Shown here: positions 42,118-44,594 of the stretch, piece after piece
How the letters are laid out: every line of letters begins with the position of its first letter
How positions within the stretch are numbered: the stretch's first letter is position 1
Source of the DNA: Thalassobacillus devorans
GTDB lineage: Bacteria > Bacillota > Bacilli > Bacillales > Halobacillaceae
DNA: 64,000 nucleotides
Reading direction: 5' to 3'
Assembly: GCF_900176565.1 (NCBI RefSeq)
Contig: NZ_FXEH01000005.1
Location: 459,384-523,383, forward strand
Notes under the pieces: model-generated
What the model was told of the DNA's origin: nothing
Databases searched by the model: none
What the model saw: only the letters and a program-made list of their open reading frames with translations
Program-made: the position numbers and the translations under genes

Positions 42118-42939
42118 ATGAAAAAGAGCATATTTTCCAAAACATTTGTCTATACCGTACTCATCACTTATGCTGTCATCACGTTCATCCCATTTTTATG
42201 GGCGATTCTTTCCTCCTTCAAGCCATTAGAGGAAATCGTATCAGGAATCACCTTTTTACCTGAAAACTTCACATTAAATAACTACATCCAAATATTTTCA
42301 AAAGAGCCGTTATTCTTACGGTGGATGTTCAATAGTGTATTTATAACCACCTGTATGGTCATTTTAAATCTCATTTTTAATTCGATGGCAGGTTATGCAT
42401 TAGCCCGGATTAAGTTTGCCGGCCGGAACTTCTGGTTTATGTTAATTCTGGTCGTTTTGATGATTCCTTTTCAAGTCACCTTGATTCCAAGCTATCTGAT
42501 TCTTAAAATGTTTGGCTGGCTGAATACCTATCAAGGGCTGATCATCCCTGGCATGGTCAATGCGACATTCATTTTCATGATGCGTCAGTTCTTCCTCAAC
42601 TTCCCGAAAGAACTGGAAGAGGCTGCACAAATGGATGGCCTTAGCCGTCTGGGGACGTTCTTCCGAATCGTAATGCCCTTAGCAAAACCAGCCCTGGCTG
42701 CTCAGGCTGTCTTCATTTTTATGGCATCGTGGAATGATTTCATGCGACCGCTGATTATCATGTCTGATGAAGCCATGTTCACACTGACATTAGGATTGAA
42801 CACATTTAAAGGACAGTACATCAGCTTCTGGAACTTAATCATGGCCGCTTCTACCGTCATGACGATACCATCACTGCTTATCTACGCCTTTTTCAACCGT
42901 TACTTCATAAAAGGCGTCACCTTCACAGGCGGAAAATAA
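42118..42939 (+). CDS. Sugar ABC transporter permease (MalG-like)
   Basis: The 273 residues hold six membrane segments, with the EAA loop 'EEAAQMDGLSRLGTFFRIVMP' near residue 195 and the start 'VITFIPFLWAILSSFKPLEEI' typical of MalG. It follows the MalF-like gene by 12 nt (AAGGAGG in the gap), last in the lacI-initiated operon. A palindromic repeat follows at 42956. Confidence 0.93.
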   Translation: MKKSIFSKTFVYTVLITYAVITFIPFLWAILSSFKPLEEIVSGITFLPENFTLNNYIQIFSKEPLFLRWMFNSVFITTCMVILNLIFNSMAGYALARIKFAGRNFWFMLILVVLMIPFQVTLIPSYLILKMFGWLNTYQGLIIPGMVNATFIFMMRQFFLNFPKELEEAAQMDGLSRLGTFFRIVMPLAKPALAAQAVFIFMASWNDFMRPLIIMSDEAMFTLTLGLNTFKGQYISFWNLIMAASTVMTIPSLLIYAFFNRYFIKGVTFTGGK

Positions 42940-42955
42940 CCAAAAAACCTTACTC

Positions 42956-42990
42956 ACCCCAGGTCCTCCAGATTCTGGAGGACCTGGGGT
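42956..42990. repeat. Palindromic GGAGGACC repeat, perfect inverted pair (locus H)
   Basis: Same 35-nt palindrome as locus G: ACCCCAGGTCCTCCAG, ATT, CTGGAGGACCTGGGGT. It lies 16 nt after the permease stop; no U-run follows on the plus strand. Confidence 0.9.
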
Positions 42991-43026
42991 AGGATAAGAT
43001 TCACTTTAATTAAAAGCACTAGAATA

Positions 43027-43048
43027 AGAACGTGTGTTCTGTTATAAT
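43027..43048 (+). promoter_or_regulatory. LexA-box-controlled promoter of a small RNA
   Basis: AGAACGTGTGTTCT (43027-43040) matches the Bacillus LexA/DinR box CGAACRNRYGTTYC at 12 of 14 positions, including both GAAC/GTTC cores. It lies 2 nt before a perfect -10 box TATAAT (43043-43048). The -35 region (43020-43025) is poor. Confidence 0.6.
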
Positions 43049-43054
43049 GATATA

Positions 43055-43147
43055 CGAACCGTCCATTCAAGTTGACCTCCCAGCTACTTGAGATGGATAT
43101 CTACTTATTCCCAAAAGGAACATGCAGCTTCCTTTTGGGATTTTTTT
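43055..43147 (+). ncRNA. Putative SOS-regulated small RNA with C-rich loop
   Basis: The predicted transcript of about 93 nt starts 7 nt after TATAAT. It folds into a 5' hairpin, TCCATTCAAG (43062) with CTTGAGATGGA (43087), whose 15-nt loop exposes ACCTCCC. A perfect 12-bp terminator follows, TCCCAAAAGGAA (43109) with TTCCTTTTGGGA (43129), ending in seven T. A C-rich loop plus terminator is the layout of Gram-positive trans-acting sRNAs that pair with ribosome binding sites. An 18-codon frame (ATG 43093 to TAA inside the terminator) is present but has no good ribosome site. No known RNA family was recognised. Confidence 0.6.
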
Positions 43148-43226
43148 AATCCCGTCCAGAGTTATATCAATCATCAATCGCTATTTTATCGCCTGCTCCC
43201 CCCTGGCGGAGCTTACCTACATAAAT

Positions 43227-43258
43227 AGAGACGTAAACAATTAGAAGTTTACGTCTCT
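43227..43258 (-). terminator. Terminator after the M20 hydrolase gene
   Basis: AGAGACGTAAAC and GTTTACGTCTCT make a perfect 12-bp stem with an 8-nt loop, about 45 nt after the stop codon at 43302. The flank on the minus strand is ATTTATG, a weak U-run. Confidence 0.65.
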
Positions 43259-43301
43259 TATTAGCAGCTACTAATGCTTTATGCATTGATTTAAGATAAG
43301 G

Positions 43302-44594
43302 TTAATCGATCGATTCAATATATGTTTTTAACACATGAACTCCCTGCACGATATCATTCAAAGAAGACCATTCTTCTGGATTATGACTGATTCCGTTTTT
43401 ACTGTTCACAAACAACATAGCTACAGGAAGATGATGCCCGACAATAAGGGCGTCATGCCCTGCTCCACTTGGAAGCTCCACCGGCTTAATATCGTGCTTT
43501 TCCAATGCCTCGCTTAGAAGCTGCTTCCTTTCTTCATCAATAGGAACCGGAGTTACTTCTAGGTTTTGTTTGTGGTTGACGTTTACACCGAAACCATCAG
43601 CTATCCGTTCTGCTTCTTGGATGATCCTGCGCGTAAGTTCATTCCTTGTGTCTGCATAGATATCGCGGATATCAACAATCATGGAAACTTTGCCCGGGAT
43701 CACGTTAGCTCCATTCGGATAGACGTGAAGCTTTCCGACAGTAGCAACAGCGGAGTCACTCACTTGTCCAGGCAAGTGATGGATGGTGCGGACAAAGTCA
43801 CCTGATGCGACTAAAGCGTCCTGCCTTTCTGTCATTGGCGTGTTCCCTGCGTGACCGGCACTTCCAATGAAATCAACTTCCAGCCAGGCTGGACCTGCAA
43901 TACCTGATACGATGCCAACGGGCAAGTTTTGTTCTTCTAATTTTGCTCCTTGTTCTATGTGTATTTCTACATAAGTTTTAATACCACTTAAATCCCGGGC
44001 TGCTTCAGCGAAGCTTTCCTCCGACAGACCAATATCTTCCATGACTTTTGCGAAAGAATTATCATCCTGATCGGTAAAGCTTTTTTGCACTTCCATATCA
44101 ACTTCTCCTGCCATGGCCCGGCTTCCGGTCAGCCCGCTATTAAAGCGTGCTCCTTCTTCATCGGAAAAGATGGCGATTTCATAGGAATGGTTCGGCTGGT
44201 AACCTATTTCCTTCCATGCTTCTACCACCTCAAGTGCAGAAAGCACCCCGAGCGGGCTATCGAAATGCCCGCCATTCGGGACACTGTCTACATGGCCGCC
44301 ACTCATAATCGCAGGTTTAGAAGGGTCCTTCCCTTCTAAACGTCCAAACACATTTCCTGCTCCATCTTCCGATATGCTCAGGCCTGCTTCTTCCATCCAG
44401 CTTTTCACAAGATCCTTCACTTGTTTTTCTTCCTTAGAAAAACCAATGCGCCTGCTTCCGCCGTCTTCTGTCAGCCCAATTTTCGAAATAGCATGGAACG
44501 GCTTGGCTAATCTTTCTCCATTGATGCCGTCATGCGTATGATTTTCATCATAATCCCTGATTAATCTACCATATAAATTCCATTCTTCTTCCAT
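43302..44594 (-). CDS. M20 family N-carbamoyl-L-amino acid hydrolase / allantoate amidohydrolase
   Basis: The 430 residues match the Zn-dependent hydantoinase/carbamoylase group: 'SGGHVDSVPNGGHFDSPLGV' (metal His and Asp), 'AIFSDEEGARFNSGLTGSRA' (catalytic Glu pair), 'VEIHIEQGAKLEEQ' (metal His) and 'LPSGAGHDALIVGHHLPV'. It removes a carbamoyl group from an amino acid or allantoate. Its ATG is 4 nt after the amidohydrolase stop, so the two are co-translated. The pair suggests breakdown of a cyclic ureide or N-substituted amino acid. Confidence 0.9.
   Translation of the reverse strand: MEEEWNLYGRLIRDYDENHTHDGINGERLAKPFHAISKIGLTEDGGSRRIGFSKEEKQVKDLVKSWMEEAGLSISEDGAGNVFGRLEGKDPSKPAIMSGGHVDSVPNGGHFDSPLGVLSALEVVEAWKEIGYQPNHSYEIAIFSDEEGARFNSGLTGSRAMAGEVDMEVQKSFTDQDDNSFAKVMEDIGLSEESFAEAARDLSGIKTYVEIHIEQGAKLEEQNLPVGIVSGIAGPAWLEVDFIGSAGHAGNTPMTERQDALVASGDFVRTIHHLPGQVSDSAVATVGKLHVYPNGANVIPGKVSMIVDIRDIYADTRNELTRRIIQEAERIADGFGVNVNHKQNLEVTPVPIDEERKQLLSEALEKHDIKPVELPSGAGHDALIVGHHLPVAMLFVNSKNGISHNPEEWSSLNDIVQGVHVLKTYIESID

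Follow-up and report, generated by a model that had tools for sequence, protein, structure and literature searches.

A probable SOS-controlled small RNA with an anti-Shine-Dalgarno loop, and its hairpin family, in relatives of Halobacillus

Introduction

Small RNAs (sRNAs) that turn CU-rich loops against ribosome binding sites are known from Listeria, where the multi-copy siblings LhrC1-5 bind Shine-Dalgarno regions in this way and repress oppA; they are LisR-dependent, are induced by envelope and heme stress, and carry three CU-rich regions (PMC5880928). DinR of Klebsiella is a LexA-controlled, trans-acting sRNA that occupies the ribosome binding site of its target ftsZ, and it is cut from the 3' end of the dinI mRNA and depends on Hfq (PMC10907235). 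IstR-2 of E. coli is another LexA-controlled small RNA, and 113 candidate sRNA loci with a LexA box, Gram-positives included, were predicted in 2008 (PMC2527527). From the accounts given in these reports, a LexA-controlled sRNA, predicted LexA-box loci and the CU-rich-loop mechanism are known already. Our search of the open-access literature by title and abstract found no LexA- or SOS-controlled sRNA described in Gram-positives. As further background, IstR-2 is part of a toxin-antitoxin locus, and RsaE/RoxS (RF01820) is a C-rich-loop sRNA of Firmicutes.

Here we describe an element in a 64-kb stretch of DNA (the window) that a first-pass annotation of the letters alone had read as a candidate SOS-induced sRNA with an anti-Shine-Dalgarno loop. 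The observation proved correct nearly base for base, and comparison with related genomes supports the reading, while the novelty claimed for SOS control of such an RNA is tempered by DinR, by the loci predicted in 2008 and by the loop mechanism of LhrC. The feature is probably real and probably an SOS-controlled sRNA.

As these systems are described in the cited reports, LhrC is the nearest by mechanism and DinR the nearest by control. LhrC and the window element both have multi-copy siblings and a CU-rich loop directed at Shine-Dalgarno sites, and oppA, a target there, is the lead candidate here; in contrast, LisR controls LhrC whereas LexA is proposed here, and there is one CU-rich region rather than three. 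With DinR, LexA control and occupation of the ribosome binding site would be held in common, but DinR is released from the dinI mRNA, whereas the window element would be standalone, with promoter and terminator signals of its own. IstR-2 resembles it in the proposed LexA control, although we noticed no toxin gene on reading the neighbours of the window element. RsaE/RoxS has a C-rich loop as well, but RF01820 does not match the window element.

Results

Architecture of the element

The region that contains the element, 42940-43301, is bounded by an ABC-transporter operon, the final frame of which stops at 42939 (+), and by an M20-peptidase gene with its end at 43302 (-). Its features are collected in Table 1. 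A perfect 16-bp inverted repeat at 42957-42989 (CCCCAGGTCCTCCAGA/TCTGGAGGACCTGGGG), close upstream of the element, probably marks where the ABC-transporter operon stops.

Table 1. Positions of the features of the candidate sRNA locus in the window.
Feature	Position	Strand	Basis or remark
LexA/DinR-like box AGAACGTGTGTTCT, palindromic	43027..43040	.	12/14 to CGAACRNRYGTTYC; the paralogue L002 has GGAACGTATGTTCT
Extended -10 element TGTTATAAT	43040..43048	+	Overlaps the last base of the box; TATAAT at 43043-43048
Predicted transcript, about 93 nt	43055..43147	+	Fold z -4.6; start inferred 7 nt past TATAAT
Hairpin 1, 13-nt loop at 43073-43085	43061..43098	+	Folding; stem 43061-43072/43086-43098, 12 bp, one bulge; relatives also folded
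ACCTCCC loop motif, proposed seed for pairing with ribosome binding sites	43075..43081	+	Alignment; at least 3/5 bases unpaired in 19/19 folds
Predicted intrinsic terminator: 12-bp stem, 8-nt loop, seven T	43109..43147	+	Perfect stem spans 43109-43140
18-codon frame MDIYLFPK..., judged a non-gene	43093..43149	+	Length varies among the three closest copies (18, 53 and 53 codons); lacks a ribosome binding site

The box reported in the first-pass annotation, GAAC-GTGT-GTTC against a perfect TATAAT, was recovered as described, and a TG at the extended -10 position was found besides; the perfect terminator with its seven T was likewise present. Both predicted hairpins fold, with ACCTCCC in the loop of the first, but that loop was shorter than the 15 nt given for it. 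The predicted transcript folds into two hairpins with a minimum free energy of -29.0 kcal/mol, a stability that 0 of 200 shuffles equalled, and its unpaired, CU-rich loop is complementary to Shine-Dalgarno sites. Promoter and terminator signals of a putative standalone unit are present in the sequence. A promoter scan returned no -35/-10 pair, and a -35 was not found; an extended -10 promoter may do without one. The own genome encodes a LexA with DNA-binding and S24 domains. Blastn of the window element against phages and plasmids gave no match at E<=1e-5, and we rejected its derivation from a virus or plasmid.

Closest copies of the window element

BLAST of the element against 44 genomes of the bacterial family matched only the own genome and G040, a sister species. 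The second copy in the own genome (L002, G000:C2:53730-53846) has 78% identity from box to terminator. None of box, extended -10, loop and terminator has been lost, TTCTGTTATAAT and GACCTCCCAGCT are the same in both copies, and the flanks align poorly. The third copy, in G040, has the box, TGGTCTAAT, a hairpin with the loop GACCACCC and a terminator. The presence of related copies in sister species makes the element probably real. Joint conservation of box and hairpin, on which the first-pass annotation had staked its reading, is therefore present in a same-genome paralogue and a same-genus homologue, and a box, a TGTTATAAT-like -10 and a C-rich-loop hairpin also occur together in further species of three genera.

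Box and promoter geometry

In the window the box alone is at chance level and carries no weight by itself: GAAC-N4-GTTC was found once with 0.76 expected, and at least once in 57 of 100 shuffles, while up to two mismatches to the box consensus gave 13 matches (two being both strands of this box) against 12.6 expected. The case rests on other genomes for this reason. The composite of box, TATAAT and ACCTCCC within 10-40 nt is above chance, with five matches in 4 of the 44 family genomes and none for the reversed-pattern control. Its CCTCC form had three matches among 397 genomes of the order, 17 of them from the bacterial family, in two genomes that both belong to that family (control, 0). GTDB contigs yielded three records with the composite, one from Halobacillus hunanensis and two unrelated.

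A hairpin-blind pattern, GAAC-N4-GTTC-N3-TATAAT, was run on the 44 family genomes and gave 44 sites in 33 of them, with 10 for the reversed-pattern control. By spacer, 33 sites were GTA-type, four GTG-type and seven TG-type, and all seven TG-type sites lead into a hairpin with a CTCCC loop. The other 37 sites have the geometry of plausible LexA promoters, with the spacer of a small SOS peptide or of sbcD: each of the GTA-type sites read (26 of 33) is followed by a small peptide of about 31 aa, and the two GTG-type sites read, of four, precede one same gene, which has an SbcD_C domain in G040. The window box overlaps its promoter with the same geometry as the boxes before sbcD and before the lexA-adjacent small peptide. 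Allowing up to two mismatches in the TG form gave 67 sites against 56 in the control, so most of these sites are chance; among those read, four (G028, G029, G035 and G043) added hairpins and further ones precede a gyrase-B/ParE-type gene.

The small peptide found after 26 of 26 GTATATAAT sites read was established opposite lexA in the own genome. There (L285:2994-4581; G000:C4 near 1167.7 kb) the LexA gene is divergent from the SOS-boxed peptide MFDKLSKLDMTYIILF..., which has about 31 aa with one hydrophobic stretch and is followed by a resolvase gene; its place is that of yneA in B. subtilis. Additionally, 11 viral contigs carried a loose form of the pattern, and none looked related to the window element. 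On one of them (L014, 10327-10379, minus strand), a LexA-like box is followed by a gene with a leader CCTCC that may pair with the gene's own GGAGG ribosome site and hide it.

A family of hairpins with a constant loop

A covariance search had been proposed for the two hairpins. Our model R1, built from 9 sequences and searched in the 44 family genomes, found the hairpin in three genera: 8 of the 44 had 16 matches between them at E<=0.001, and seven of these matches lie outside the training set. The window copy itself, however, scored only 23.3 bits (E 0.4), which is not above noise, and the paralogue 26.1 bits (E 0.1); the kinship of both with the Halobacillus-type hairpins consequently rests on promoter and C-rich loop, which the window copy shares with the R1/R2 family. 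Among the seven new matches, three show an imperfect box, once in G024 and twice in G030. The remaining four are without a box, three of them sharing promoter-like sequence around AACAGAYTTTCTG and one lying on a 90-kb contig; two further hairpins of the own genome also have no LexA box. Since some relatives are boxless, hairpin and SOS control are separable. We also observed that three Halobacillus C-loop hairpins (L137, L138 and L140, near 4500) share a non-SOS promoter-like sequence around AACAGAYTTTCTGCTAA, one of them on a 145-kb contig, and that three hairpins of genus g1 (L155 and L153) share about 70 similar upstream bases (ATTACTT..CTGGATAARAGC..CTGTTAGGGTGAATATA).

Halobacillus-type members consist of a long stem, GAGAAGGAAGG...CCTTCCTTCTC, followed by an inner stem and then the loop. 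Their RNA is predicted to begin about 7 nt past TATAAT, directly at the long stem, and several of these hairpins have no clear U-run terminator. Across the family, the stems drift with compensatory changes and the loop stays constant. In an alignment of 19 members, with 16 represented in the outer stem, both sides had changed in 6 of 11 outer-stem pairs. The covariation score, the paired cells and the double-change cells were each reached by 0 of 500 shuffles; two of the five measures were less clear, with the number of double-changed pairs reached by 13 of 500 and further pair types by 51 of 500. Shifting the pairing partner lowered all measures. The loop motif was mostly unpaired in 19 of 19 folds, with a mean probability of 0.74-1.0.

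A hairpin-only model, R2, was run on the 397 order genomes and had matches in 46 at E<=0.05; chance should account for about 20 of these if the E-values, which are rough, can be relied on. The strong matches beyond its training set were G000:C4:663028 and two genomes of family f36, with a CCTCCCC loop and no box, and the next by E-value (e.g. G370 and G394) are without the loop. A weaker hairpin of the own genome lies near C4:667624. No Rfam family matched the window element at the gathering score, and hairpins at six relatives' loci were likewise unmatched. Among 15 sub-threshold Rfam matches (E up to 10) in 42940-43300, none was LhrC, the covariance model of which gave no match in the window at the gathering score. 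In the RF01820 search, 0 of 12 genomes exceeded the cut-off, while the Bacillus subtilis positive control was matched. The only RsaE-like match in G000 (L288, G000:C4:260305-260413) has 39 bits against a cut-off of 79 and lies away from the element; that in G040 is stronger, still under the cut-off. The window element probably belongs to a new hairpin family, the SOS form of which is confined, as sampled, to the bacterial family of Halobacillus.

Predicted pairing of the loop with oppA

The loop, UGACCUCCC(C), is complementary to the oppA site GGGGAGGUCA. The sequence GGGAGGTCA stands shortly before an ATG 10 times in the own genome, four of these being the other strand of the hairpins themselves. 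Long frames begin at three of the other six sites. They are oppA, with 570 aa counted from that ATG, a further solute-binding protein of 433 aa and, if its start is GTG, a metallo-beta-lactamase-fold protein of 309 aa. The identity of oppA was taken from Pfam SBP_bac_5 in the own genome and elsewhere from gene names by reading. GGGGAGGTCA precedes oppA in all 11 hairpin-carrying genomes chosen for the search, one of which (G041) has only boxless hairpins. Before an ATG, GGGGAGGTC occurred at 63 places in the 11 genomes against 23 for the control, and the G-rich sites were rejected as proof of targets. Among the 57 places read, only oppA recurs in 11 of 11 genomes, the other recurring genes being yqfC-like (3), an aminopeptidase (2) and a sodium symporter (2).

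For the 15 of 21 known loops that were run, predicted pairing with the oppA site of their own genome had energies of -15.2 to -25.0 kcal/mol, and 0-4 of 500 shuffled loops were as good. The target prediction suggested for the ACCTCCC loop placed oppA first among 79 sampled own genes (-18.7 kcal/mol against a mean of -9.6), yet oppA had been picked for its motif before this ranking. Genus g3 has the oppA site as well, in at least seven genomes, and the hairpin was found neither in 22 genomes of g3 with R1 (E<=0.001) nor in 10 with R2 (E<=0.05). RsaE was discarded as the cause of the g3 site, with no match in the four g3 genomes searched. A pair with the oppA site survives in only 7 of 20 loop substitutions. 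The g3 site without a hairpin and this low number of substitutions make oppA a lead and not a result. Pairing of the loop with ribosome sites is a likely mechanism, and oppA is the target that we infer to be favoured.

Discussion

The reading we favour, with fair assurance from the comparative sequence evidence, is a standalone LexA-repressed sRNA, with an ACCUCCC loop that would block ribosome binding sites, from a hairpin family of varying promoters and with oppA as the favoured target. The copies at unrelated sites, several per genome, would also suit a small dispersed MITE-like repeat that carries a promoter by accident, any RNA from it having no target in trans. The own genome has four copies (one weak), and at E<=0.001 G024 has five and G030 four; one copy shares its 145-kb contig with a ParA-type gene and another adjoins a resolvase gene. 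However, the copies in G024, G027, G029 and G030 share TatC and a glyoxalase/dioxygenase-type gene as neighbours (Pfam on the G024 locus only), and those in G028 and G034 share another site. Shared neighbours of the Halobacillus copies indicate that their positions are inherited, and the compensatory drift of the stems around an unchanging loop also speaks against a mere repeat, which we consider improbable. A chance meeting of box, -10 and hairpin would accord with the expected frequency of the box alone in the window, but all parts are kept in the paralogue and homologues; the conservation found already contradicts this reading, and it deserves almost no credence.

SOS-induced small membrane peptides are known, a precedent for the alternative in the first-pass annotation, in which the product is a peptide (MDIYLFPK...); we considered it as a short SOS peptide comparable to SOS type I toxins. 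Its ATG is kept in the three closest copies. Against this, no conserved translated small frame was found in these copies: the frame length is not kept, the frame passes the terminator in two of them, the ATG lies inside the hairpin stem, and the Shine-Dalgarno duplex at the ATG is +0.6 kcal/mol. The peptide-coding reading was rejected for its unconserved frame length and missing ribosome binding site, and we regard it as extremely improbable. Opposite-strand frames at the hairpins were also dropped, the ones translated being short and the Halobacillus hairpins generally having no ATG. The loop might instead bind a protein or mimic the 3' end of 16S rRNA, damping translation generally rather than that of chosen mRNAs. 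CCUCC, the loop core, is the anti-Shine-Dalgarno core, and against an artificial generic site the loops reach pairing energies of -6.0 to -11.2 kcal/mol. Conservation nevertheless reaches UGACCUCCCC, past that core, and the window loop pairs more strongly with oppA, preselected by motif, than with the 78 other sampled own genes; general damping is, in our judgement, quite improbable.

If the preferred reading of a LexA-repressed, RBS-pairing sRNA is correct, LexA on the box against the extended -10 would block the promoter in undamaged cells, and RecA-driven cleavage of LexA upon DNA damage would release an RNA of about 93 nt ending at the intrinsic terminator. The first hairpin would display the (U)GACCUCCC loop, which may pair with ribosome binding sites that are rich in G (core GGGAGGU) and keep the chosen mRNAs that carry them from being translated; the mRNA of oppA, a gene of peptide uptake with a site complementary to the loop, is a candidate for such repression. 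LexA binding, transcription, target pairing and repression are what we infer for the window element. The hairpin family appears dispersed, with the loop kept and promoters that differ, some of SOS type and some not.

A bolder and rather doubtful extension is that an SOS sRNA family of halophilic Bacilli stops oligopeptide uptake through oppA, and with it signalling-peptide import, as a checkpoint at the RNA level that reuses one hairpin, keeping its loop and exchanging its promoter between regulators. If true, the import of signalling peptides that steer sporulation and competence would be shut down upon DNA damage. With its conservation, its visible seed and a candidate target, the family would open control by RNA in the Bacillus-type SOS response to direct tests, and its siblings with other promoters may exemplify a single RNA module connected to several signals.
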